From assembly GCA_016787345.1 (NCBI GenBank), contig JAEUUU010000021.1, positions 26,029-90,028 on the forward strand: DNA of 64,000 bases, read 5' to 3'. Below are positions 226-61,423 of this stretch, piece after piece. The notes under the pieces were generated by a model, which did no database searches, was not told the origin of the DNA, and was given only the letters and a program-made list of their open reading frames with translations. Every line of letters begins with the position of its first letter. The first letter of the stretch is position 1. Made by a program: the position numbers and the translations under genes. Origin of the DNA: Saprospiraceae bacterium. GTDB lineage: Bacteria; Bacteroidota; Bacteroidia; Chitinophagales; Saprospiraceae.

Positions 226-2364
226 CTATTCCAAATACAATACGCAAGTAGTGTTATTCGCCCGGGTTCCGGGTGCAAGGCTCTGGCGGGCAACTTTGCC
301 GACGCCCTGTACCTTGACTTTGCAGCCGCGGTTTTCGAGCAAATAGATGGCATCTTTCAGCCCCATTCCCACCACCGACGGCACGGTTTTGTCGGCCACG
401 AGGCGGGTGCGGAGGATGAGTGAATCGTTGCGGGCCGAAAGGGAGACCCAATCGGGCAACTTGTCCGATTCGTACCAGGGCATATTCAGCCATTCCAGTG
501 CATTGCGCACGTCGCGTTTCTGGCCCGCATTGAGGCTGGGCAGATCGGCCGTGGCCAGTTTGGTTTTCGGCTGAATCGGCTGGTGCAATTCGGGTTTCAT
601 GGCAAAACAGCGATCGGCGATAGCCCGAAATACCGGGGCAGCGACCTCGGCGCCGTGATAGCCGGCGCGTTTTGGCTCGCTGATGACTACGATGCAAGAA
701 TACACGGGATCGTCGGCCGGGAAAAAACCGCAAAAACCAGCCTGGTGACGGATGCCCGCATCGGCTTTGAATTTGTGGTAGTTCAACTGGGCCGTACCCG
801 TTTTGCCGGCGATCGTGTACTTGGACGGCCGTATGTTTTTTGCCGTACCGGTCAGCACGACCTCCTTGAGCAATTCGTGGGCTTTTCGGATAGTGCCCCG
901 GCTGGCGATACTGCGACGCACCACGTAGGGTTGAAATTCTTTCACCGGCTTGCCGTAGCGTTCGATGCGCTGTACCAGATAAGGGCGCATCATGCGGCCG
1001 TCGTTGGCCACAGCGTTGTAGAACTGGAGCAATTGCAGCGGCGACAACAAGAGTTCGTACCCGATGCTCATCCAGGGCAAGGTGGTTCCCGACCACTCGC
1101 TCTTGGGATCGCCGGGTTGCTTGATGTAGGGTTTCTCTTCCCCACCGACTTCGATTTCGGTGGTTTGGTCGAGCCCGAAACTTTCGAGGCGTTTGACAAA
1201 TGCCGCGGACTTGCGGTTGTCGCCGTAGTATTTCTGGACGAGTGAGGCAGTGCCCACGTTCGACGACTGGGCGAAGATGTCGCGGATAGTCATCGAGTCC
1301 TGGCCATGCGGCACGGCATCGAGCAATTCTTCGTCGTAAAACTTCATTTTCCCCTTGTAAACAGGGATTTTTTCGTCAAAATCGTCGAGATGACCGTCTT
1401 CAACCATGGCCATGAAGGAAGCCAGTTTGAACATGGAACCCGGCTCCACGCGTTCGCCCACGGCGTAATTGAAGGTTTCCCACCAACCTTCCGGCGTACG
1501 GCCGATATTGGCGATGGCTCGCACCGCGCCGGTTTTAACTTCCATGACGATCGCGCAGCCGTGGTCGGCATCGTGCGTTTCGCAGGCTTTCAACAGGGCC
1601 GATTCGGCGGCATCCTGAATATTGATGTCGATGGTAGTCACCAGATCGTCGCCGGCCCGGGGTTCTATTTCGGCCAGGTCGTTGATCGGGATATACATAT
1701 CGCCGGGCACCCTGAGCATCATCTGTTTGCCCTGCGAGCCGCCGAGCACCTTGTCGAACGCGCCTTCGAGCCCCACGGGCAATGCACCTTCGCGCACGTA
1801 GCCGATGGTACGCTGGGCCAGAATTTTGAAAGGCCGGTCGCGCTTCGGTTTTTGTTCCACGATCAGGCCACCCTTATTGCGCCCCAGTCGGAAAATGGGG
1901 AAGTTTTTGATTTGCAGCATTTTAGGATACGGCACATCCATAGCGATGGGCACGTAGCGAATGCCGCGGGTATTGTCGGGGTAAATATTGCGCAGCGAGT
2001 CGAGCCAGAGTTTGTAGGCGCCGGGCGTGTAGTGCTGATCAACATAGGTCGACAACAAAAACGCCAGACTGTCCAGACCTTCTTCAAAAACCTGATTAGT
2101 CAAACCCTCGGCCTTGGCATCGAAGTGAATATCGAAATAGGGCACCGAGGTGGCCAGCAGACTGCCGTCGTCGGCCAGGATATTGCCCCGGTCGGCGTAA
2201 ACGTCTACAAATTTCAAATAAAGACTATCCGATTTCGCCTGCCATTTAGGCGCTTCCACCACCGACAGCTGGTACAAACGGCCGAATATCAAAAGCCCTG
2301 CGACCAGCGTCAGAAACGCCACCACATAGAGATTGAGCAGGACTTCGTTTTTAATATTCAGCAT
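226..2364 (-). CDS. ftsI: FtsI-type penicillin-binding protein, PASTA domain at C-terminus
   Basis: Class B transpeptidase of the divisome that cross-links septal peptidoglycan in the periplasm (712 aa). One N-terminal membrane segment lies at about residues 9-28, followed by a dimerisation region with YADRGNILADDG. All three active-site motifs are visible: SMFK with the nucleophile near S310, SSN near 365 and KTGT near K521. The last ~60 residues (VPSVVGMGLKDAIYLLENRG) form one PASTA domain. It lies between ftsL and murE. Unusually, about 190 nt of repeat DNA separates it from ftsL. A SpoVD-like role is an alternative by sequence alone, but context favours FtsI. Confidence 0.92.
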   Translation of the reverse strand: MLNIKNEVLLNLYVVAFLTLVAGLLIFGRLYQLSVVEAPKWQAKSDSLYLKFVDVYADRGNILADDGSLLATSVPYFDIHFDAKAEGLTNQVFEEGLDSLAFLLSTYVDQHYTPGAYKLWLDSLRNIYPDNTRGIRYVPIAMDVPYPKMLQIKNFPIFRLGRNKGGLIVEQKPKRDRPFKILAQRTIGYVREGALPVGLEGAFDKVLGGSQGKQMMLRVPGDMYIPINDLAEIEPRAGDDLVTTIDINIQDAAESALLKACETHDADHGCAIVMEVKTGAVRAIANIGRTPEGWWETFNYAVGERVEPGSMFKLASFMAMVEDGHLDDFDEKIPVYKGKMKFYDEELLDAVPHGQDSMTIRDIFAQSSNVGTASLVQKYYGDNRKSAAFVKRLESFGLDQTTEIEVGGEEKPYIKQPGDPKSEWSGTTLPWMSIGYELLLSPLQLLQFYNAVANDGRMMRPYLVQRIERYGKPVKEFQPYVVRRSIASRGTIRKAHELLKEVVLTGTAKNIRPSKYTIAGKTGTAQLNYHKFKADAGIRHQAGFCGFFPADDPVYSCIVVISEPKRAGYHGAEVAAPVFRAIADRCFAMKPELHQPIQPKTKLATADLPSLNAGQKRDVRNALEWLNMPWYESDKLPDWVSLSARNDSLILRTRLVADKTVPSVVGMGLKDAIYLLENRGCKVKVQGVGKVARQSLAPGTRANNTTCVLYLE

Positions 2365-2380
2365 GGCTGGACAGATATTC

Positions 2381-2553
2381 GGTTATTTGGTTATTTGGTT
2401 ATTTGGTTATTTGGTTATTTGGTTATTTGGTTATGCGGTTATGCGGTGAATTGGTTATGCGGTGAATAGATTAAATCGAGAGCAGCAACAACCCTTTTAT
2501 TAACCACCTCACCAATTCACCGCATAACCAAACAACTAATTCACCGCATAACC
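2381..2553. repeat. Octamer tandem repeat plus inverted arm between ftsL and ftsI
   Basis: From 2381 six perfect tandem copies of GGTTATTT are followed by variant words GGTTATGC and GGTGAATT up to about 2460. After a spacer holding AGCAGCAACAACCCTTTT (2481-2498), the same words return in inverse complement (2509-2553, repeated TTCACCGCATAACC), ending exactly at the ftsL stop codon. The RNA could fold into a long imperfect hairpin. The core is shared with the repeats at 14798-15015, 23935-23955 and 61238-61385. It sits inside an operon of essential genes, so it is either transcribed through or modulates ftsI expression. Confidence 0.9.
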
Positions 2554-2859
2554 TTAATTTTCTATAATCTTCGGCCCTTCCGGATCCAGATTCAGGCCGG
2601 CCGATTCGAGGCTGGCATCCATCTGCGATTGAAGGGATTTATACATGGTTTCGCTCTTAATAGAGGTGTACTCCCATTTGAGTTCCTTGATTTCTTTTTG
2701 CAGTTGTTGAATGCGCCGTACTCCGGTTTCGGAGAAATGCGCATTGGCGATATACACGATAGCCAGAAAACCCAGGAACAGCACGTAGGTAAAGTTGCCG
2801 AACACCAATTGGGTGGTGTGCTGGCTGACGTTGAGATATCCGAGGAGTTTGTTGGCCAT
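2554..2859 (-). CDS. ftsL: FtsL-like divisome protein
   Basis: A 101-aa bitopic membrane protein. A short cytoplasmic N-terminus is followed by a membrane segment at about residues 24-40 (YVLFLGFLAIVYIANAH) and a coiled-coil stretch (RRIQQLQKEIKELKWEYTSIK). This is the topology of FtsL, the small scaffold that, with FtsB and FtsQ, activates FtsW/FtsI at the septum. FtsL sequences are poorly conserved, so the call rests on size, topology and position between rsmH and ftsI. It is separated from rsmH by 188 nt and from ftsI by the repeat. Confidence 0.82.
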   Translation of the reverse strand: MANKLLGYLNVSQHTTQLVFGNFTYVLFLGFLAIVYIANAHFSETGVRRIQQLQKEIKELKWEYTSIKSETMYKSLQSQMDASLESAGLNLDPEGPKIIEN

Positions 2860-4690: not shown

Positions 4691-4835
4691 TGAATTTTAC
4701 CTTAGAAAAATCTAAAAAACGCTACAAACAATCGAGCAAACAACTGTCGTGCATTAATAAGGGGAAAAAGTGGGAACAAGCGCAGGGAGAATTACCGGTG
4801 GTGGTAAAAAGTGGCGGCGGAATCCTTTTTTATTT

Positions 4836-5132
4836 GCGATATCCGATTAGTTCGATTTCCGATTTGCGATTGGATTGATGATTTTTGATTTAATAACAAT
4901 CGGAAATCCTGATTCTAAAATCCAATCGCAAATCGGAAATCGAACTAATCGGATATCGGAAATAAAAACAGGAGTCGCCCCGATCATTCGGAACGACTCC
5001 TGTCGTCGTAATCTGTTCAACTCACGGCTTCCGGTCCGTTTGATGTTTTTTGATTTAAACAATCGGAAATCCTGATGCTAAAATCCAATCGCAAATCGCC
5101 AATCGAACTAATCGGATATCGCAAATAAATAC
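4836..5132. repeat. Inverted plus direct repeat block built of CGATTTn-like words
   Basis: The left arm at 4836-4876 is made of CGATATC, CGATTTC and CGATTTG words. It is the near-perfect inverse complement of 4917-4958. The right arm, with its leading CAATCGGAAATCCTGAT, recurs as a direct copy of about 75 nt at about 5060-5132 with only a handful of differences. Between them lies a separate hairpin, CAGGAGTCG (4969-4977) with CGACTCCTG (4994-5002). The second copy ends about 8 nt before the stop codon of the neighbouring surface-protein gene. No convincing gene lies here. Confidence 0.88.
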
Positions 5133-5140
5133 AGGAGCCC

Positions 5141-9844: not shown

Positions 9845-10045
9845 CGCTGTAGCGCCGCCTGTAGCGCCGACCTGTAGCGCCGACCTCCAGGTCGGCGACG
9901 TTGAGGGCAATAAAAAACCGCGATTATCAGCCAATGATCCGGGCGTCATTAAGCAGTATTCATCCGGAGCAATAGCGGATAATCGCGGGTTATTTCTGCG
10001 CTCAACGTCGCCGACCTGGAGGTCGGCGCTACAGCGGCGCTACAG
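9845..10045. repeat. Long inverted repeat with CTGTAGCGCCGACC words
   Basis: The left arm (about 9845-9928) contains CTGTAGCGCCG repeated two to three times, then CGCCGACCTCCAGGTCGGCG (itself a palindrome), CGACGTTGAG and CCGCGATTATC. The right arm (about 9976-10045) is its inverse complement with few changes and ends one base before the SQR stop codon. The spacer of about 45 nt is not repeated. It separates two minus-strand genes and could act as an RNA hairpin or an attenuator. Confidence 0.88.
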
Positions 10046-12446: not shown

Positions 12447-13826
12447 TTATCTCAGTTCCTGAATATCGCTGATGATTTTGCGCGCCAGGTTTTGTGCGAC
12501 GACGTCGGAATTGCTTTCGGAGTAGACGCGAATAATCGGCTCCGTATTGGAAGGGCGCAGGTGTACCCAACCGCTATCAAAATCGATTTTCAGCCCGTCT
12601 TCCGTATTGATCTGCTCGTTGCGGTACTTTTCTTTTAGCGCTGCAAAGATTTTTTCCAGATTGATGTCGGGTGACCTGTCGATTTTGGTTTTGGCCATGC
12701 GGTAGTCCGGATAGGTGCTGCGCAGGGTGGAAATTTGTTTTCCAAAAAGAGCCAGGTGGCTGAGAAACAAGGCAATGCCGACCAATGCATCGCGTCCGTA
12801 GTGCAGTTCGGGCAAAATAACGCCACCGTTTCCTTCGCCGCCGATCACTGCATTGACGGCTTTCATCTTTTCCACCACATTCACCTCTCCTACCGCCGCG
12901 GCATAATATTCACCGCCGTATTTGTGGGTTACGTCGCGCAGGGCGCGGGTGCTGGAGAGGTTGGATACCGTATTTCCACCGCCTTTTTGGGCCAAAACGT
13001 AATCAGCCACGGCTACGAGGGTGTATTCTTCGCCAAACAACTCGCCATCCTGACACATAAAAACCAGGCGGTCGACATCCGGATCGACAGCAATGCCGAG
13101 ATGAGCCTTTTGCTGACGCACCTCGGTGGAAAGTTGCCCAAGGTGCTCTTTCAAAGGTTCCGGGTTGTGCGCAAACTGGCCGGTGATTTCGCCATTGAGC
13201 AGCACGACCTGACAACCGAGGGCTTCGAGCAGCGGCGGCACCGACAAAGCGCCGGTGGAATTGACCGCATCGACGACCACCTTGTAATTTTTGGCGCGAA
13301 CAGCCTCCGCATTGACCAGCGGCAGGGCAAGAATTTGATCGATATGACGCTGGATATAACCGCCTTCCTGGCGGTAAGCGCCCAGCCGGTCGACCGGAGC
13401 ATACTCGATCGCACCGGCAGCCACGCGGGCCAGCACGTTGGCGCCGTCGGCGGCGCTGATGAATTCGCCGCGATGATTGAGCAGTTTGAGGGCGTTCCAC
13501 TCACGCGGATTGTGACTGGCCGTCAGAATGATACCGCCGCCCGCACCTTCGGCGGGCACGGCCAGTTCGACGGTCGGGGTGGTGCTGAGCCCCAGATCGA
13601 TGACTGAAATACCGCAGGCACGCAGGGTGTTGACCACCAGTCCGGCCACGATGTCGCCGGAAATACGGCCGTCGCGACCGACCACGATGGTGTTTTTACC
13701 CGAGGTCTCGACGACCCACTGGCCAAAAGCGGCCGTACACTCGACAATATCTTGCGGGGTGAGGTTGTCGCCCGCGCGGCCGCCGATGGTGCCGCGAAAA
13801 CCGGAAATAGATTTGATGAGAGGCAT
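12447..13826 (-). CDS. glmM: Phosphoglucosamine mutase / phosphohexomutase
   Basis: A 459-aa cytoplasmic alpha-D-phosphohexomutase, probably making glucosamine-1-phosphate for UDP-GlcNAc. All four family loops are visible: TASHNPREWNALKLL with the phosphoserine, VDPDVDRLVF for Mg2+, GGEGNGGVI for sugar recognition and RPSNTEPIIRVYSES for phosphate. The start at 13826 (MPLIKSISGFRGTIGG) is set by the family N-terminus and by TACCTTTG ending 8 nt upstream; a longer frame would add 17 unrelated residues. Phosphomannomutase activity cannot be excluded. Confidence 0.88.
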   Translation of the reverse strand: MPLIKSISGFRGTIGGRAGDNLTPQDIVECTAAFGQWVVETSGKNTIVVGRDGRISGDIVAGLVVNTLRACGISVIDLGLSTTPTVELAVPAEGAGGGIILTASHNPREWNALKLLNHRGEFISAADGANVLARVAAGAIEYAPVDRLGAYRQEGGYIQRHIDQILALPLVNAEAVRAKNYKVVVDAVNSTGALSVPPLLEALGCQVVLLNGEITGQFAHNPEPLKEHLGQLSTEVRQQKAHLGIAVDPDVDRLVFMCQDGELFGEEYTLVAVADYVLAQKGGGNTVSNLSSTRALRDVTHKYGGEYYAAAVGEVNVVEKMKAVNAVIGGEGNGGVILPELHYGRDALVGIALFLSHLALFGKQISTLRSTYPDYRMAKTKIDRSPDINLEKIFAALKEKYRNEQINTEDGLKIDFDSGWVHLRPSNTEPIIRVYSESNSDVVAQNLARKIISDIQELR

Positions 13827-13834
13827 ATGACCGG

Positions 13835-13894
13835 CAAAGGTAAAGCACCGGCACAACAATCGCCATCGGCAATACAAACTTGGTCCTACCTTCG
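13835..13894. promoter_or_regulatory. Divergent promoters of glmM and the LytTR gene
   Basis: TACCTTTG on the minus strand (13835-13842) ends 8 nt before the glmM ATG. TACCTTCG on the plus strand (13887-13894) ends 4 nt before the ATG at 13899. Both fit the TAnnTTTG -7 consensus (the second with one mismatch), so both transcripts would have almost no 5' leader. Confidence 0.5.
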
Positions 13895-13898
13895 CGGT

Positions 13899-14768
13899 AT
13901 GCTTTGGCCGACCCTGCGCAACAAGCTTTCACAACCCTACCCGATGCACGACGAAACCCGCTGGAACTGGCGGATGGCACTGGGCAGCGGTTTGTTCGTC
14001 CTGCTGTTTTTGTTTATCCTGCAACCCTTCGGCAGCCGCGTACCCGCTGGCAAGGAGTGGTTTTATTTGCGGATTTGTGCAGAATACGGCCTCATCACTT
14101 CGGTTGTGACTTTGGCATGGGGGCCATTGCAGGCATTTTTTCCTCATTTTTTCAAAGAAGAAAAATGGCAGGTTTGGAAAGAAATCGTCACGACCCTGCT
14201 GTTTGTCAGCGTGATTGCCACGGCAAATATGCTGTACGCCGTCGTGCGGTTTGTCCAACCTTTGAACTGGCAGACTTTTGCGTACTGGCAATTCGTCACC
14301 TGGGCAGTGGGGATATTTCCAACCTTGTACGGCGTGCTGCGCAAACAGGTTCAACTGATGCAACGCTACGCAGCCGAAGCGGCCGACCTGACCCGTCAAC
14401 TGCATCCGTCGCCGCCCCACCCTGCCGAGCCGGCGCTTTTGCTGAACGGTGAAAATCAGGGCGAATCCCTGCAGATCCACCCCGACGACCTGCTCTGTCT
14501 GGCAGCGGCCGACAATTACGTTCAGGTTTTTTACCGCGAAAACGGGACCACCCGCCAGCGTCTCCTACGCGGCGCCCTGCGGCGTTTTGAGGCGGCGCTG
14601 GCTCCTTATCCGCGCTTTTTTCGCTGCCACCGCACCTATGTCGTCAACCTCGACCGGGTAATTCGCATCAGCGGCAACGCCCAGGGCTACAAACTCCACC
14701 TCGATGGCCTCGAACAACCCGTCCCGGTATCGCGAGCCCTGAATGATGAAATCCGGAAAAGGTTTTAG
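13899..14768 (+). CDS. Membrane-anchored LytTR-family transcription regulator
   Basis: A 289-aa protein with a hydrophobic N-terminal half of about four membrane segments (such as LGSGLFVLLFLFILQPFG) and a C-terminal LytTR DNA-binding domain from about residue 185. The latter shows LCLAAADNYVQVFYRENG, RCHRTYVVNLDRVIRI and VPVSRALNDEIRKRF. Such integral-membrane LytTR proteins are common in Bacteroidota and sense unknown signals without a separate receiver. The start at 13899 is chosen from the adjacent -7 element; 13944 is an alternative. Upstream in-frame codons overlap the divergent glmM gene. Confidence 0.82.
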   Translation: MLWPTLRNKLSQPYPMHDETRWNWRMALGSGLFVLLFLFILQPFGSRVPAGKEWFYLRICAEYGLITSVVTLAWGPLQAFFPHFFKEEKWQVWKEIVTTLLFVSVIATANMLYAVVRFVQPLNWQTFAYWQFVTWAVGIFPTLYGVLRKQVQLMQRYAAEAADLTRQLHPSPPHPAEPALLLNGENQGESLQIHPDDLLCLAAADNYVQVFYRENGTTRQRLLRGALRRFEAALAPYPRFFRCHRTYVVNLDRVIRISGNAQGYKLHLDGLEQPVPVSRALNDEIRKRF

Positions 14769-15051
14769 GTTTTAGGTTTTAGTTTTTGGGTTTTGGCAAA
14801 AGGGTTGTTGCTGCTCTCGGGGCGGGTTTTGGGTGTTGGGAGTTGGGTTTTGGCAAAAGGGTTGTTCCTGCTCTCGGGGCGGGTTTTGGGTGTTGGGGTT
14901 TGGCAAAAGGGTTGTTTCTGCTCTCGGATAGCGCTTCGGATTTGGGAAGTAATGATCCGCTGCTCGCGCGAGGCTTTGCCTCGTGACACTTTCCGAGAGC
15001 AGCAACAACCCTTTTGCCAAAACCCAAAACCCAACACCTAAAACCCCAAAA
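14769..15051. repeat. Triple direct and inverted repeat with shared core, REP hairpin in the centre
   Basis: Heptamer words GGTTTTA/GGTTTTG follow the LytTR stop, then the core AAAAGGGTTGTTGCTGCTC occurs three times in direct orientation (starting 14798, 14855 and 14905), each preceded by GGGTTTTGG-type words. One inverted copy (14995-15015) leads into CCAAAACCCAAAACCC words. The centre holds CGAGGC-TTT-GCCTCG (14969-14983). Its GCGCGAGGCTTTGC is identical to 39265-39278 beside the RAYT transposase. The rest of the gap up to 15156 shows no gene. Confidence 0.92.
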
Positions 15052-22601: not shown

Positions 22602-22624
22602 TGACAATTCGGCGAGCATGAACC

Positions 22625-22632
22625 TAACTTTG
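22625..22632 (+). promoter_or_regulatory. -7 element TAACTTTG of the glycosyltransferase gene
   Basis: TAACTTTG fits TAnnTTTG and ends 6 nt before the ATG at 22639. This argues against the in-frame ATG at 22618, which lies upstream of the element. Confidence 0.5.
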
Positions 22633-22638
22633 CCGCCG

Positions 22639-23838
22639 ATGCTGCTCGTCGCTCAAATTCTCTTCTGGGGCAGTGTGCTGGCCTTGGCACACAGCTACGT
22701 TTTTTACCCCTTGCTGATGAAATGGCTGGCAAAAGGTAAAAGACCGAATGAACTCGTCTTTGACAAAGACGACGCGCAGCTGCCGTCAGTGAGCATCCTG
22801 ATGTCGGTGTACAACGAGGAAAAAGTGATCGCGGAGAAACTCGACAGCCTGTTGCAACTTGATTACCCAGCCGGCAAACTGCAGATTTACATCGGCTCCG
22901 ATTGTTCGGACGACGCCACCAACCAATTGGTGGCGCAGGCGGCCGGCAGGAGTGATCATCTACACTTTTACCCGTTTGCCCAACGGCGCGGCAAACCCCC
23001 GGTCATCAATGAACTGGCCGAATATGCCCTGAAACGCAGTCCGGCCAGCCCCGGCCATGTTTTCGTCCTGACCGATGCCAGTGTGATGCTGCGCGCCGAT
23101 ACACTGTATCATCTGGTGCGGCACTACCGCAACCCGGCCATCGGCGTCGTGGATGCGCACATGCGCAGCGTCGGGCTCAGGGGGGAAGGCATCAGCCGCA
23201 GCGAAGACCGCTACCTGAGCGGAGAAGTGCAGCTCAAATACCGTGAAGGCCTTGTGTGGGGACAAATGATCGGGCCGTTCGGCGGGTGTTATGCCCTGCG
23301 ATCCGATTTGTTTGAGCCGGTGCCGCCCAACTCGCTGGTCGATGATTTCTGGCTGGTTTTTCGCGTGCTGGAAAAAGGTTTTCAGGCGATCAACGACCTC
23401 GATGCCGTCTGTTACGAAGGCGCGACACACCGGGTGCGCGACGAGTTTCGGCGCAAAAAGCGCATAGCAGCCGGCAGTTTTCAAAATCTGGCGCGTTTCA
23501 GGCGCTGGGTATTGCCGCCGATGAGCACGCTGGGATTTGCCTTTTTTTCACATAAAGTACTGCGCTGGTTCGGCGGCTTTCTGATCCTCCTGAGCTGGCT
23601 GGCCTGCGCTTGCCTGGCCATCGACATGGCATTCTACCGCTGGCTGCTCTTGCTGATGACCGCCGGTCTGGCAGGTATCCCCCTGCTCGACTGGCTGCTC
23701 TCCCGGCTTCGTTTCACATTTTTACCGGTAAAAAACCTCGCTTATTTCCTCGCCATGAATGCCGCCCTGATCGCCGGTTTTTTCAAGTGGCAAAAGGGCA
23801 TCCGGGAAAATACCTGGCAACGTACAACGAGATATTGA
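22639..23838 (+). CDS. Family 2 glycosyltransferase with membrane segments
   Basis: A 399-aa processive-type GT2 protein in the inner membrane. An N-terminal hydrophobic helix (VAQILFWGSVLALAHSYVF) precedes the GT-A domain: ILMSVYNEEKVIAEKLDSLL, YIGSDCSDDAT for the nucleotide sugar, LTDASVML as the DxD-like position, and RRKKRIAAGSFQNL near the acceptor site. Two to three membrane helices follow at the C-terminus. Substrate is unknown; relatives make polysaccharides or transfer to lipid carriers. The start is set by the -7 element just upstream. A repeat hairpin follows the stop directly. Confidence 0.85.
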   Translation: MLLVAQILFWGSVLALAHSYVFYPLLMKWLAKGKRPNELVFDKDDAQLPSVSILMSVYNEEKVIAEKLDSLLQLDYPAGKLQIYIGSDCSDDATNQLVAQAAGRSDHLHFYPFAQRRGKPPVINELAEYALKRSPASPGHVFVLTDASVMLRADTLYHLVRHYRNPAIGVVDAHMRSVGLRGEGISRSEDRYLSGEVQLKYREGLVWGQMIGPFGGCYALRSDLFEPVPPNSLVDDFWLVFRVLEKGFQAINDLDAVCYEGATHRVRDEFRRKKRIAAGSFQNLARFRRWVLPPMSTLGFAFFSHKVLRWFGGFLILLSWLACACLAIDMAFYRWLLLLMTAGLAGIPLLDWLLSRLRFTFLPVKNLAYFLAMNAALIAGFFKWQKGIRENTWQRTTRY

Positions 23839-23999
23839 ATTTGAGGATTTGAGGATGCGAGGATGCGAGGATTTGACAAAAGTGGTACTACCGCTCACTA
23901 AAACAATACTTATAAAGGAACATTGTCTGTTATCGAGGGCAGCAATGCCCCTTTTGTCAAATCCTCGCATCATCGAATCCTCAAATCCTCGAATCCTCC
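23838..23999. repeat. Inverted repeat of GAGGATnn words around a degenerate core
   Basis: The left arm (23838-23882) is made of GAGGATTT and GAGGATGC octamers. The right arm (23951-23999) is its inverse complement with about two or three mismatches. The left arm overlaps the last base of the glycosyltransferase stop and the right arm ends directly before the ATG of the sugar kinase. The centre holds GGCAGCAATGCCCCTTTT, a diverged copy of the core found at 2481, 14998 and 61369. Confidence 0.92.
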
Positions 24000-36562: not shown

Positions 36563-36846
36563 ACATACGTTAAGCCGCGATGCGGCACAGGAAAGTCGGG
36601 TATCATTTACCATGAATCCCCCGGGGTACAACTGCCACATCGCGGCTTAACGTATGTAGAATTGATTGCAAGGTCATTTATTGCCGCATCGCGGCATGAC
36701 GTATGTAGAATTGATTGTAAGGTCATTTATTGCCGCATCGCGGCTTAACGTATGTAGAATTGATTGTAAGGTCATTTATTGCCGCATCGCGGCATGACGT
36801 ATGTAGAATTGATTGCAAGGTCATTTATTGCCGCATCGCGGCATAA
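36563..36846. repeat. 49-bp tandem array with palindromic core and an inverted outlier
   Basis: Four near-identical 49-bp units (CGTATGTAGAATTGATTG starts at 36651, 36700, 36749 and 36798) each carry the palindrome GCCGC-ATC-GCGGC (36683, 36732, 36781, 36830). A degenerate copy lies at 36634. An exact inverted copy of 25 nt (36563-36587) faces the array across about 45 nt. The units differ only at two or three positions (GCAAGG/GTAAGG, GGCTTA/GGCATG). There are no spacers, so this is not CRISPR. The remainder of the gap 36843-37008 shows no gene. Confidence 0.93.
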
Positions 36847-37008
36847 CGTGCAAATCAATGCCAAAATTTCGGGATAAAGCCTTGCATGAAATCCCATCGG
36901 TTTTAGGCCGAACGGGCGTGTAAGACAGCCGCGATAGTGCGGTTTCTTACCATTCACAACACTTGGAACAGGTTGGTCGTTATGGGGAAAAAATAAAAAT
37001 CTGTTCCT

Positions 37009-39217: not shown

Positions 39218-39393
39218 GATTAACAGGGTTGAAGGATTGGGTTGTATGGTTTATTGGGCTGCTGGCGCGAGGCTTTGCTGCTGGCGCCAGCAAGACGGTA
39301 AAAGCCTCTCCCGGAGGGCCAAAACGCCTATATTTTTTGAAATATTTTTTTGCTCAATGGCGGTCACTTGACACATTATACCCGTAGGAAAAA

Positions 39394-39401
39394 TAGCTTT
39401 G
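39394..39401 (+). promoter_or_regulatory. -7 element TAGCTTTG of the RAYT gene
   Basis: TAGCTTTG matches TAnnTTTG and ends 18 nt before the ATG at 39420; this argues against the TTG codon at 39399 as start. Confidence 0.5.
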
Positions 39402-39419
39402 CTCAAAAACTGTTTAACC

Positions 39420-40001
39420 ATGAGTGTAAAATACAAGATTAGAGATCAGCATGGCCTGAATTTCCTCACTTGTTCGGTAGTCGGCTGGGTTGATTTGTTT
39501 GGCCGTGCCGTGTATCGCGACATCATCCTCGATAGCTGGCGTTACTGCACCGAACACAAAGGCTTTAACGTCTGGGGTTATGTTTTGATGCCCAACCATA
39601 TTCATTTGATTGCCAGCGCCACGCCACCTTTTCGACTTAACGCTGTCATGCGCGATTTCAAGGCACGGACGGCAAGGAGGATGCTCGATGTCCTTCATGA
39701 TCATGAACAGGTTGAAAGCCGTCGATCCTGGTTACTGTATCTGTTCGGTTATTTTGCCCGCTTTGATCGCGATAAACAGCAGTTCAAAATATGGCAAGAA
39801 GATAACCATCCCATCGAGCTGTTTTCGGAGAAAGTTGCTTTACAAAAACTGCAGTACATCCATGAAAACCCTGTACGCGCCAAACTAGTCGCCAAACCGG
39901 AAGACTGGTTGTACAGCAGCGCCAGCAATTATCTGAACGGAACAGGGATTTTTGATGTAAAACGGTTGTGGTCAGGATTTGCTGACGACAGTTGGTTTTG
40001 A
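39420..40001 (+). CDS. REP-associated tyrosine transposase (RAYT, Y1-HUH family)
   Basis: A 193-aa single-strand transposase of the IS200/REP type. The HUH motif is in MPNHIHLIAS; the catalytic tyrosine is in LQYIHENPVRAKLV; WLYSSASNYLNGTG is the common RAYT C-terminal motif. Such enzymes cut and move REP palindromes rather than themselves as an insertion sequence. Palindromes flank the gene on both sides, and part of its flank recurs at 14966-14979. The gene looks intact. Confidence 0.9.
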   Translation: MSVKYKIRDQHGLNFLTCSVVGWVDLFGRAVYRDIILDSWRYCTEHKGFNVWGYVLMPNHIHLIASATPPFRLNAVMRDFKARTARRMLDVLHDHEQVESRRSWLLYLFGYFARFDRDKQQFKIWQEDNHPIELFSEKVALQKLQYIHENPVRAKLVAKPEDWLYSSASNYLNGTGIFDVKRLWSGFADDSWF

Positions 40002-40137
40002 CAGATCACTGTGCTGCTGGCACGAGGCTTGACTGCTGGCGCGAGGCTGCGTCTCGTGCCATGTATCGGCCGGGCTGAGCCCGGCTAATAGTAGACACGA
40101 GGCGCAGCCTCGCGCCAGCGGGCCTCGCGCCAGCGAC

Positions 40138-53443: not shown

Positions 53444-53465
53444 GGGAAAAAATTATAATAAGGTT

Positions 53466-53566
53466 GGGTTGATAAAGGTTGATAAGGGTTGATGAGGGTT
53501 GATGAGGGTTTATGAAAGTAGAGAAGCCGCTCTCTATAAACCCTCATCAACCTCGTCAACCCTTAT
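53466..53566. repeat. GGGTTGATn hairpin between convergent genes
   Basis: The left arm (about 53466-53524) consists of GGGTTGATGA-like words, the right arm (about 53531-53566) of the inverse TCATCAACC-type words, with a loop around AAGCCG. The right arm runs to the TonB receptor stop codon. It lies between convergent genes, so it may act as a bidirectional terminator, though it lacks the canonical T run. The core seen in other loci is absent. Confidence 0.85.
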
Positions 53567-57571: not shown

Positions 57572-57603
57572 AACCAATGCACACATAACCCATTTATCCA
57601 TCT

Positions 57604-57640
57604 CTCGAATCCTCGAATCCTCACATCCTCGAATCCTCAA
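57604..57640. repeat. Single arm of TCGAATCC words before fecR
   Basis: TCGAATCCTCGAATCC-type octamers occur immediately before the FecR ATG. They are the inverse complement of the GAGGATTC words found at 59886-59921 downstream of the STN gene and in the loci at 23838 and 61200. There is no second arm locally. Confidence 0.8.
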
Positions 57641-57642
57641 CA

Positions 57643-58611
57643 ATGACCGACATCGATGAATTGCTCGCCCGCATCCTGAGCGGAGAAGCCGCCGAGGGCG
57701 ATTCCGCGCAGTTGGAGGCCTGGTTGGCGGCGTCGGACGACAACCGGCGCTACTTCGAGGACCTGCAACGAATATGGGCTAATGCCCAACCGGCCGCGGC
57801 AGCGCAGTTTGATCCGGAAAAAGCCCTGCAAAAAGTCAAATTTCGCCTGAACAACAGCGGCGGAAGCGCCCCCGCCAGCCGCTTCTTCCTTTGGCCCGCC
57901 GCCGCGGCCGCCGTGCTCCTGCTGAGCCTGGCCTGGTGGCTGTTCCGTTCTCCGGCCCCCCTGCCAGCCGTCGAAATCGCTGCCGGCAACGCCGTTCGCA
58001 GCGATACCCTGGCCGACCGCTCGGTGATCGTGCTCAACAAAACCAGCACCCTCCGCCTGGCCGAAGGCTACAACCGCCGCGAACGCCGTATGCGCCTTTC
58101 CGGCGAGGCGCGTTTTGCGGTACAGCCCGACAAGGAAAAACCCTTCATAGTAGAAGTAGAAGCCCTGGAAGTGCGCGTGGTGGGCACCGAATTCACCGTC
58201 GATGCCTTGAGCACACCCGGCGCCACCACGGTGACCGTTGCCTCGGGTATCGTCGAACTCCGGGCCGGCGGCCAAACGCTGCGCCTCCTGGCCGGCGAAC
58301 AAGCGCATTACCTGCAAACCAACGGAACACTGGAAAAAATCGCCCGACCCGACCCCAATGCCGCCGCCTGGTTCGACCTGATCTTTCACTTCGACGCCAC
58401 GCCCCTGGCCGCGGTAATTCCCAGTCTTGAAAAAGCCTACGGAATCGACATCGTGCTCGAAAACAAGGAATTGGCCAACTGCAAACTGACGGCCGACTAT
58501 GTGCGCGAAAAACCCGAACGCATCCTCGAACTGATCGCCCTTTCGTTTTCGCTCGACCTGCGCCAGGAGGGCAACCGATACCTGCTCGACGGACCGGCTT
58601 GCATGGAATAA
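57643..58611 (+). CDS. FecR-family anti-sigma factor
   Basis: A 322-aa inner-membrane regulator of the preceding ECF sigma factor. An N-terminal cytoplasmic part (LLARILSGEAAEGDSAQLEA) binds sigma by family analogy; one membrane helix is at about residues 85-102. The periplasmic FecR domain (~115-205, VRSDTLADRSVIVLNKTSTL, GEARFAVQPDK) is followed by a DUF4974-type segment (~240-310, FDATPLAAVIPSLEKAYGID) resembling a secretin/TonB short N-domain. It would receive a signal from an outer-membrane receptor. An STN-domain protein follows 33 nt later. Confidence 0.9.
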   Translation: MTDIDELLARILSGEAAEGDSAQLEAWLAASDDNRRYFEDLQRIWANAQPAAAAQFDPEKALQKVKFRLNNSGGSAPASRFFLWPAAAAAVLLLSLAWWLFRSPAPLPAVEIAAGNAVRSDTLADRSVIVLNKTSTLRLAEGYNRRERRMRLSGEARFAVQPDKEKPFIVEVEALEVRVVGTEFTVDALSTPGATTVTVASGIVELRAGGQTLRLLAGEQAHYLQTNGTLEKIARPDPNAAAWFDLIFHFDATPLAAVIPSLEKAYGIDIVLENKELANCKLTADYVREKPERILELIALSFSLDLRQEGNRYLLDGPACME

Positions 58612-58644: not shown

Positions 58645-59886
58645 ATGTCCGGAAACCGCCCCCCCTTCCCCCGGCTTCTGCTGTTTGCCGCCTGCCTGGC
58701 GTTCTTTTTTCCCCAGGTACGCGCTGCTGAAATTCTCGAACGCCGGATCAGCGTTGATTTTCAAGACATTTTATTAAAAAATGCCCTCGAAGAAATCGCC
58801 CGGCAGGGCGAGTTTCAATGGTCGTACAATGCCGGCATTCTTCCCAAAGGAAAAATAGTGACGCTCCGCGCCAGTAACTGGACTGTCCGCGAAACGCTGT
58901 ACGCCTTGCTGGGCGAAGGCTATGAATTCAAATCGAGCGGCAACTACCTCATTTTGAAAAAACGCCGCCAACCCGCCGACGAACTGAGCGGCTACGTGAC
59001 CGACCCCCAAACCGGCCAGCGCCTCGCCAACGCCACCGTGTACGATCGCCGTACCCTGCGCGCCACCACTACCGACGAAAACGGCTATTACCGACTGAAA
59101 AAAACCGGCCGAAAAGCCGAGGTCGTGGTCTCCAAACTGGGTTACCGCGATACCGTCCTGCAAATCGCCTCGAACACCCCGCGTTTTCAGAAAATTGATC
59201 TGTCGACCTATACCCCTGCGCATCCAACGACCGACAAATCTCCGTTCTGGGAAACCGCCTACACCCAAACCGAACGGTTTTTCTCCGCCACGCTCGACCG
59301 CTGGAATGCCCTCAACGTACCGGATTCGTTGCACCGGCGCTTCCAGGTGTCTTTTTTGCCCTATCTGGGCACCAACCACAGCCTGAGCGGACAGGTAGAA
59401 AACGATTATTCGCTCAATATCCTGGCGGGACACTCCCGCAGGGTCCGTATGCTGGAAATCGGCGGCCTGGCCAATTTTACGCACGAATCGGTCGATGGCG
59501 TCCAGATCGGCGGTCTGTTCAATTCCGTGCGGGGCGATGTGCGGGGCGTGCAGGTCGGCGGACTCGTCAACCTGACCCGCGACACCCTGATGGGCGTACA
59601 AATCGCCGGACTGGTCAACCGGAGCCGAATCAACAGTGAACAGGCCATTCAGGTGGCGGGACTGGTGAATGCCGCCCTCTCGGGAAAAAGCGCCTTGCAG
59701 GTTGCCGGTCTGGTCAATACCGCCGACACCGTTCAAGGCGTCCAAATTTCAGGGCTGGTCAATCATGCCCGCAGCGCCAGAGGCGTCCAGGTCGGCCTGT
59801 TCAATTCGGCCCGCGAACTGAACGGCCTGCAAATCGGCCTGCTCAACCGGCACGGCCGGCGCTGGATGCCTTTGTTTAACTGGTGA
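58645..59886 (+). CDS. Exported STN plus regulatory-like domain protein with GVQIGGL solenoid, no TonB barrel
   Basis: A 413-aa exported protein. After the signal peptide, residues ~35-105 form an STN domain (RISVDFQDILLKNALEEIAR), ~113-190 a carboxypeptidase-regulatory-like domain (SGYVTDPQTGQRLANATVYD). From ~268 about nine repeats of 14-18 residues carry VQIGGLVN/VQVAGLVN, like LA_2272-type surface repeats, so likely a beta-solenoid. FecR-linked genes of this position usually encode TonB receptors with a plug and barrel; here neither is present. It may sense or bind a ligand for FecR signalling; function is inferred. Confidence 0.8.
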   Translation: MSGNRPPFPRLLLFAACLAFFFPQVRAAEILERRISVDFQDILLKNALEEIARQGEFQWSYNAGILPKGKIVTLRASNWTVRETLYALLGEGYEFKSSGNYLILKKRRQPADELSGYVTDPQTGQRLANATVYDRRTLRATTTDENGYYRLKKTGRKAEVVVSKLGYRDTVLQIASNTPRFQKIDLSTYTPAHPTTDKSPFWETAYTQTERFFSATLDRWNALNVPDSLHRRFQVSFLPYLGTNHSLSGQVENDYSLNILAGHSRRVRMLEIGGLANFTHESVDGVQIGGLFNSVRGDVRGVQVGGLVNLTRDTLMGVQIAGLVNRSRINSEQAIQVAGLVNAALSGKSALQVAGLVNTADTVQGVQISGLVNHARSARGVQVGLFNSARELNGLQIGLLNRHGRRWMPLFNW

Positions 59887-59921
59887 GGATGCGAGGATTT
59901 GAAGATTTGAGGATTCGGGGC
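59886..59921. repeat. Single arm of GAGGATnn words after the STN gene
   Basis: GAGGATGCGAGGATTTG and related octamers begin within the stop codon of the STN gene. They are the inverse complement of the arm at 57604-57640, so the two single arms enclose FecR and STN in inverted orientation. Confidence 0.8.
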
Positions 59922-61199: not shown

Positions 61200-61423
61200 T
61201 TGAGGATTCGAGGATGCGAGGATTTGAGGATTTGAGAAAAAGGGTTGTTTTTGCTCTCGGATAGTGTTGCTGCTTGGCGCTTCGACATTCGGTGTTCGAC
61301 ATTCAGTGCTGATATTCGAAGTACTTAATAGCCGGAGGAACACCGAACTCCGAATATCGAAATGATGGGCAGCAACAACCCTTTTTCTCGAATCCTCGCA
61401 TCCTCAAATCCTCGAATCCTTTC
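61200..61423. repeat. Long inverted repeat: GAGGATnn words and two core copies
   Basis: The left arm (61200-61258) holds GAGGATTC, GAGGATGC and GAGGATTT octamers and then AAAAGGGTTGTTTTTGCTC (core, 61238 on). The right arm (61367-61423) is the inverse complement with GGCAGCAACAACCCTTTT and then the words. A second, inner inverted pair (GATATTCG near 61311 with CGAATATC near 61351, and GGTGTTCG with GAACACC) lies in the spacer. The right arm overlaps the last bases of the convergent DUF4340 gene. It is the most complete example of the family. Confidence 0.92.

Follow-up and report, generated by a model that had tools for sequence, protein, structure and literature searches.

The hairpins that are dispersed between the genes of a Saprospiraceae bacterium are probably gene-less, slippage-prone members of a mobile class resembling the intervening sequences (IVSs) of 23S rRNA genes, in which tandem words of 6-10 nt, a payload and the inverted words follow one another, a reading drawn from sequence comparison. 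In the fuller members the payload is one small PF05635 gene, which belongs to the four-helix-bundle family of 23S rRNA intervening sequence proteins (S23p), and in many gene-less members of this genome (G000) and its sister (G025) an inverted core, AAAAGG(8 variable)TGCTC, surrounds a variable loop instead of a gene. One gene-bearing element of this genome has its words in common with many gene-less ones, and PF05635 genes are associated with inverted word arms in relatives as well as in cyanobacterial plasmids. Gene-bearing members insert between neighbouring genes, as judged from empty sites; the relatedness of the proteins is tied to that of the words, and whole words are gained and lost, the two arms of one element being alike beyond the shared word. 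These elements look like a widespread, hardly described class of word-armed insertions, of which the gene-less core elements would be a local subfamily.

Word-armed elements and their position among genes

The window, that is, the whole stretch of 64,000 nucleotides analysed, contains the elements collected in Table 1. In the studied element, core and inverse core were located where a sequence-only reading had placed them, and further word palindromes, e.g., at 53462-53564 and 4827-5137, were found beyond those already listed there. The reading had proposed one conserved core with tandem arms; one core, AAAAGGGTTGTTnCTGCTCTCGG, is indeed joined to three word families, termed A (TTRGGTN, 7 nt), B (GAGGATNN, 8 nt) and C (GGTKANNT, 8 nt), but the inner core varies and many elements are lopsided. 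The core ends, AAAAGG...TGCTC, are conserved, whereas some eight inner positions vary and co-vary, with two-sided replacements (e.g., T:A, G:C, C:G) at core columns 6, 7, 8, 9 and 12. Up to five left core units occur per single right unit (L015), one side only is present in L007, L035 and L038 at 2427, and the one-sided tandem core units are about 57 nt long. At 2381-2553 the C words are accompanied by the core as claimed, but by the right core only, and at 23838-23999, which had been read as a diverged copy, the GAGGAT words are present but the core is another one (23839-23994). Among the B words, GAGGATTT and GAGGATGC are common, and the asserted ending in TT or GC is a tendency, because TC, GT, AC and CT also occur.

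Table 1. Word-armed elements of the window, their parts and their neighbours
Feature	Position	Strand	Words and anatomy	Neighbours
Studied element, B words	61203..61420	.	GAGGATNN	Between the stop codons of two convergent neighbours: FtsX/MacB-like permease gene (+), DUF4340 gene (-)
Left (5') word arm, studied element	61203..61236	+	AGGATTC GAGGATGC GAGGATTT GAGGATTT GAG	
Left core, studied element	61237..61260	+	AAAAAGGGTTGTTTTTGCTCTCGG	
Right (inverse) core, studied element	61367..61386	-		
Right (3') word arm, studied element	61387..61420	-	GAGGAT words inverted	
C-word element	2376..2553	.	GGTTATTT/GGTTATGC/GGTGAATT; right core alone (2477-2498)	ftsL 2554-2859 (-), ftsI 226-2364 (-); dcw cluster
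A-word element (TTRGGTN)	14763..15050	.	Left core units x3 (14800, 14857, 14907), right core x1 (14997); REP-like hairpin in loop	TAG stop of LytTR gene 13752-14768 within first word
B-word element, diverged core	23839..23998	.		Between tandem genes: glycosyltransferase 22618-23838, APH-like 24000-25052
Gene-less D-word palindrome	53462..53564	.	GGGTTGATGA/GGGTTTATGA	Convergent genes ending 53443 (+), 53567 (-)
Solitary B-word arm	57603..57638	-		Directly before ATG of 57643-58611
Solitary B-word arm	59884..59914	+		Begins with TGA stop of 58645-59886
Double palindrome	4827..5137	.	GATTTCCG/GATTTGCG words	

That the core recurs in other intergenic regions was confirmed genome-wide, since exact matches to the 17-nt core number 53 across the 5.28 Mb genome (32 on the plus and 21 on the minus strand) against none for the reversed pattern, and copies with at most one mismatch 129 against one for that control. 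Within the window, AAGGGTTGTTNNTGCTC with at most three mismatches was found 11 times versus 1.6 expected, a number reached in none of 100 shuffles. The core is abundant in two of the 60 genomes searched (own included), namely G000 and its sister G025 (96 copies), and the remaining 35 genomes of the same genus hold 0-2 copies each. The contigs of G025 are those of Saprospiraceae bacterium SJ871, the sole return of a contig scan that may omit records of, or close to, the window's own genome. No Rfam match reached the gathering threshold in the window and four loci. The copy numbers of word families for gene-less elements are to be read as "at least"; the MAG assemblies break within word arrays, and the genome is about 94% complete.

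Other repeats were encountered as well. A second dispersed palindrome with the outer arms CTGTAGCGCCGACCTCCAGGTCGGCG and varying insides lies at window 9845-10045, L039 211-379, L163 3732-4025 and L193 2510-2685. At window 36563-36877, a 49-nt tandem repeat of about 4-5 copies includes TGCCGCATCGCGGC, with an inverted copy ACATACGTTAAGCCGCGATGCGGCA upstream, and a similar inverted repeat surrounds another Y1 transposase match in L183. Long near-perfect inverted repeats including gene-like sequence at the contig starts of C43 (L158 1-342) and C58 (L163 1-267) are likely assembly hairpins at word palindromes and were excluded from the evidence.

With gene positions from a simple in-house gene caller, 45 of the 57 gene-end-facing element edges of G000 lie at most 15 nt from a stop codon (median 6), compared with only 3 of the 33 gene-start-facing edges (median 74); the corresponding counts in G025 are 23/34 and 1/13. 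The 47 word elements of G000 comprise 16 in convergent and 23 in tandem contexts, four with a missing neighbour and four called divergent, two of which are miscalls by eye (window 14768; L038), one real (L039) and one undecided by eye (L152). The idea that the words supply stop codons in every frame was rejected, with 1.07 stop-bearing frames per 32-nt arm as against 1.04 in shuffled arms (n=114).

Such a location invites the view that the elements are bidirectional transcription terminators, or 3'-end protectors, common to convergent genes, to which the proximity to stop codons, the single clear divergent case (L039), a very stable hairpin (z -11) and the AAAA...TTTT surroundings of the core would be agreeable. 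This role is nevertheless improbable, and a strong one was ruled out mainly because one element separates ftsL from ftsI within the dcw cluster, a place where word palindromes recur in other species. Cousins of the elements lie between cas10|cmr3, cas6|cas4 and two nrd genes, and a clear wobble signal is missing. Nor do the elements look like intrinsic terminators, which are hairpins with a U-run that close a transcription unit: only four or five T follow the core, and one element lies inside the dcw cluster.

The gene order around the element at 2376-2553 is mraZ-mraW-ftsL-ftsI-mur (by Pfam), and the gap between ftsL and ftsI measures 4-54 nt in ten genomes of the same genus among the 30 loci listed. 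Other genomes have word arrays of their own at this junction: GATTGATTC (G020), GGTTCTT/GGTTGTT (G022), GTGTTTGG (G006, G016), the AACCACC type (G007, G009) and AATGATG (G010, and directly before ftsI in G008 and G015, where ftsL is unseen because the contigs begin inside the array). In the gap or the stretch before ftsI, gene-less word palindromes are present in G000, G020, G022, G006 and G016 and one-sided arrays in G007 and G009, and in G008 and G010 the word arms enclose a small PF05635 gene, that of a 23S rRNA IVS protein; the one in G010 (L264) was read by eye and lies outside the 70 genes considered below.

PF05635 genes between inverted word arms

PF05635 was detected in 33 of the 36 genomes searched (own included; 31 above the curated cut-off) and in none of 14 control genomes, with up to 11 copies per genome and eight in G000, one of them below the curated cut-off. 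An inverted repeat spans 48 of 70 such genes at a score >=15 (39 at >=20) versus 1 of 44 other small genes, the 70 being a non-random set, best matches first, of 30 loci listed by the profile search and 40 chosen from its list. At least one arm is periodic (z >=3) in 42 of the 48 spanned genes, compared with 6 of 200 random pairs; the best period is 7 in 27, 8 in 8, 9 in 5, 10 in 4, 6 in 3 and 11 in 1, and the median span is 564 nt. The 22 of 70 genes without such arms count against the reading as a mobile class, and the phylum-wide sample is weaker: PF05635 is present in 45 of 61 genomes, and of 29 loci 13 reach >=15 and 4 reach >=20, with 1 of 20 among neighbours. The 5' arm, in the sense of the gene, has more G than C in 47/47 armed gene-bearing elements of the first set, 12/12 from cyanobacteria and 11/13 from the phylum sample; the arms of gene-less elements are C-poor too (4-7% C).

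Two gene-bearing elements of this genome connect the hairpins to the protein. The arms GAGGATTTGAGGATGCGAGG of L285 enclose a PF05635 gene, and their words (TGAGGATTTGAGGATGCGAGGATTTGAGG) are the B words of the studied element at 61203-61420; they are matched by 17 of the 76 palindromes examined from this genome (similarity >=0.45; the eight listed range from 0.65 to 0.89). The gene element L310 carries D words like those of the gene-less elements in L149 and L167; 2 of the 76 palindromes match these D words, and the palindrome at 53462-53564 resembles L310 in its words (by eye and pattern). Five word families surround the eight PF05635 genes of this genome, two of which, B and D, have gene-less siblings in the sequence examined, and A or C words were found around none of the eight in the genome, which is about 94% complete. 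None of the inspected gene-bearing elements of G000 showed the AAAAGGG core. At the site of the D-word palindrome, about 5.4 kb lie in the sister (G025 C203:10929-16318) between flanks matching window 53444-53566.

Between a gene-bearing element and the one with the nearest protein in another genome, the word similarity is 0.432 versus 0.131 to all, being higher in 40 of the 47 elements. Protein distance and word similarity are modestly related over 1012 between-genome pairs (Mantel rho -0.162, a value reached or undercut in 4 of 2000 permutations), L290 and L294 having been left out of the protein analysis for their internal stops. The tree places L285 (GAGGATTT/GC) next to L317 (GAGTATTT/GAGGATGT), which comes from a different species, with 68% identity. 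The genes look to be under selection, judging from a median pN/pS of 0.34 over 69 pairs, in many of which pS is saturated, and a dN/dS of 0.09 for the G000 copies L311/L312. The L285 protein matches 2gsc, XCC0516, and scores weakly to bAvd, below the cut-off of that family.

A tblastn search of plasmids with the L285 protein returned 23 records, 21 of them cyanobacterial by genus name. Inverted arms are present in 12 of the 14 plasmid stretches examined, all from cyanobacteria (8 at >=20), compared with 3 of 243 random windows, and all 12 are periodic at 7 nt. Empty sites, in which the two flanking genes have nothing inserted between them, were found for seven cyanobacterial insertions, all of gene-bearing members: L380 and L387 are each the other's empty site, and the remaining pairs are L392/L393, L382/L394 (cas10|cmr3), L381/L395 (nrd genes), L384 with L397 and L400, and L388/L398. 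The inserts, about 410-520 nt long, occupy junctions that run from a stop codon to the start of the following gene. In L392 the two ends carry the 5-nt sequence GTAAT, repeated exactly, of which the empty site has one copy; no exact short direct repeat was seen at the ends of the other six. L396 retains the L392 element in shortened form, as a remnant. L386/L399 gave no empty site, another palindrome occupying the place. This palindrome (L399 358-632, ends GTAGGTTGGGTTGA / CAACCCAACCTAC) differs from the four-helix-bundle element that Anabaena sp. 90 has there and sits at the Dolichospermum cas6|cas4 junction. The four-helix-bundle genes of L382, L383 and L386 lie inside CRISPR-Cas operons (cas10|cmr3, cas6|cas4) and could pass for cas accessory genes; the inverted-arm score is >=15 in L383 and L386 and 14 in L382. 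No reverse transcriptase is annotated around the four-helix-bundle genes in the 14 plasmid stretches.

Arm matching and turnover of words

For the comparison of arms, pairs were picked by the core ends alone (AAAAGG...TGCT plus inverse) with the arms ignored, and 57 of 59 were kept, two having less than 32 nt of arm; the inner-core test took in 56 of the 57, one 18-nt core being omitted. Arm complementarity above chance, as the sequence-only reading had supposed, was thereby established with arms that played no part in selection: over the 24 nt outside the core, the match to the own partner in G000 (n=39) is 0.746 versus 0.517 to other elements, the top of 2000 permutations being 0.619. The eight inner core positions behave likewise (n=38; 0.885 versus 0.706, top permutation 0.780). 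G025 (n=18) gives 0.750 versus 0.562 for the arms (top permutation 0.704) and 0.868 versus 0.654 for the inner core (0.778), and arm positions 25-32 from the core, the outermost 8 nt, fall within the permutations (0.549; highest 0.583). The supposition that the elements act as RNA hairpins found no clear support, and wobble pairs gave no sign of RNA-level selection. The predicted RNA fold is very stable, but on the transcribed strand G-U mismatches do not clearly outnumber A-C ones (33 vs 30 in one set; 38 vs 23, p 0.07, in the other), so that the matching of arms resembles DNA copying no less than RNA pairing.

The flanks of orthologous sites in the sister genome are mostly 90-97% identical, and the core- and word-bearing sites compared, most of which were picked because the sister carries an element there, have the element in both genomes, so that none of them documents a gene-less copy being gained. 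The sister contig stops within the left arm at the site of the element 61203-61420. At the 4827-5137 site the sister has a short palindrome with one GATATC centre, readable as a deletion between GATATC copies. Orthologous arms differ by whole words, by 14 nt in 7-nt words at L018/L065, where loops have also been exchanged between the sister genomes, and by 8 nt in 8-nt words at L153/L203. At one orthologous site, L160/L192, A words and their core occupy one genome and B words both sides in the other, B-like remnants lying outside the A words. These whole-word differences, this family swap and the empty sites of gene-bearing members uphold the earlier suggestion of a mobile or slippage-driven family. 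In 14 core comparisons between the sisters, which include two cross-matches within one locus pair (L039 6260/L204, L160 2153/L192), there are 18 one-sided changes against 1 that is two-sided and paired; a further 3 are two-sided but unpaired, and 1 is one-sided and unpaired in both. Strict two-sided co-change was rejected on these numbers, and the arm matching is not maintained at each step, because one-sided changes predominate.

The whole-word length differences, the likeness of own arms beyond chance with no G-U excess, the 18 one-sided changes against one paired change and the numerous lopsided or one-sided arrays would also suit a purely mutation-driven origin, in which polymerase slippage would lengthen a post-stop word and template switching at the hairpin would make one arm a copy of the other, with no dedicated protein. 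Such an origin is unlikely, for it leaves unexplained the conserved core in 53-129 places, the PF05635 association together with the word/protein relatedness, and the insertions of about 410-520 nt relative to empty sites.

Proposed movement and comparison with known systems

If the elements belong to the IVS-like mobile class, the PF05635 protein, or its hairpin, would recognise the words, copies would be made to new gene junctions and gene-less elements would be moved in trans; the arms might afterwards grow and shrink by slippage and be re-matched through copying of one arm to the other or ectopic conversion. Insertion at stop-to-next-gene junctions may be tolerated because a broken or longer transcript would cost the cell little there, as with the IVSs of 23S rRNA. 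As a doubtful though possible extension, the heptamer and octamer repeats of cyanobacteria, Bacteroidota and perhaps Xanthomonas, together with 23S rRNA IVSs, could form one RNA-moving class, in which the hairpin would be cut from transcripts, bound by an Avd-like four-helix-bundle protein, reverse-transcribed by a resident reverse transcriptase in trans and inserted at another stop-to-start junction. The gene-less palindromes would then be SINE-like parasites and the words an address tying the copy to the protein. An RNA route is thinkable because this genome contains two pairs of bAvd-like and RVT_1 genes, L315 (G000 C118:61700-64400) and L316 (G000 C146:22900-25500), and the Avd protein of diversity-generating retroelements is reported to resemble PF05635 proteins (PMC10053308), with the difference that Avd works with a reverse transcriptase. 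Both loci are diversity-generating-retroelement-like, and one pair adjoins a gene with an FGE-sulfatase domain.

The link possibly gives one answer to two puzzles, the inverted heptamer/octamer arrays behind stop codons and the origin and movement of S23p-carrying 23S rRNA insertions. It supplies a testable protein partner (PF05635, structure 2gsc) and predicts a specificity code from protein clade to word, for which filled and empty sites are available in named plasmids; it also advises caution in taking such arrays for terminators or regulators, as they can be insertions instead.

Among known repeats, the REP/REPIN families moved by RAYT (Y1) transposases deserve attention, as a RAYT-like Y1_Tnp gene (PF01797) lies in the window at 39399-40001 (+). 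Near it (39258-39278, 40035-40119) is the REP-like hairpin GCGCGAGGCNNNGCCTCGTG, of whose 26 genome copies 18 lie in the loops of A-word elements by coordinate comparison, and a related hairpin (GCGCGGGGCTTTGCCCCGTG) occupies the loop of the C-word element L033. In Nostoc, the SDR repeats of Elhai et al. (2008) are reportedly short hairpins with compensatory changes nested in tandem heptamers, 21-27 nt long and of other sequence. A RAYT as the mover of the elements is nonetheless very improbable and was rejected, its presence not tracking the core: Y1_Tnp is found in 47 of the 60 genomes searched, also in most genomes without the core, which is abundant in only two, the hairpin was not seen in the B-word elements inspected, and words and core are unlike REP. 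REP/REPIN sequences are likewise dispersed extragenic palindromes, at times paired, but are short stem-loops, palindromes of 20-40 nt, with GTAG/CGTC tags, and word arms are not described in the available portions of PMC3733652; neither tag was present at the stem ends of the copies inspected, where the core ends in AAAAGG and CTCGG. The earlier judgement that the elements are not classic REP is fair, although many A-word elements do enclose a REP-like hairpin in their loops. Of the two marks of a MITE, terminal inverted repeats and a target-site duplication, the first is present, and an exact duplication (GTAAT) accompanies one of the seven gene-bearing insertions.

Tandem G-rich heptamers, GGGNATC and GGGGA(C/T)T, have been described from Xanthomonas and Nostoc, frequently no farther than 50 bp from a stop codon and rarely between divergent genes; inverted pairs number 70 and 75 in the two Xanthomonas genomes concerned and are few in the Nostoc studied, and the arrays vary extensively in length at a given site; G-quadruplexes are discussed by the authors and the role is left open (PMC4692102). 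The A words are heptamers of this kind (G3-N4), and the near-stop location and inverted pairing are shared, but the available portions of that paper describe no core and no protein partner. TAACTGA heptamers of Beggiatoaceae, cyanobacteria and Bacteroidetes similarly form intergenic arrays with 7-nt indels and contigs ending within them (PMC4679880), yet these are direct repeats, mostly just upstream of start codons in the main genome, and inverted arms around a gene are not described in the portions of the paper available. G-quadruplexes or regulator-binding arrays, as proposed for both heptamers, are extremely improbable as an explanation here, since the B and C words, which are octamers, have mostly G2 runs and yet share core, place and anatomy with the A words.

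The openly licensed PMC literature, as far as its text was available, yielded no paper joining PF05635 genes to inverted tandem words, and PF05635-type genes are mentioned, without arms in the text available, in PMC5524665 and PMC11637426. The closest parallel is the 23S rRNA IVS of Coxiella, in which two or three tandem GACAGAT heptamers precede the S23p start codon, their number varying by strain, and terminal inverted repeats surround a PF05635-type gene (PMC4990558). The present elements lie, by contrast, between protein genes rather than in 23S rRNA, have word arrays on both sides and are mostly gene-less here; the studied elements carry no S23p/IVP (PF05635) gene, but their siblings L285 and L310, whose words are identical or similar, each have one. 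With the IVSs they share terminal inverted repeats able to form a stem, and with the word-armed class the inverted arms of 6-10 nt tandem words, G-rich and C-poor in the 5' arm.
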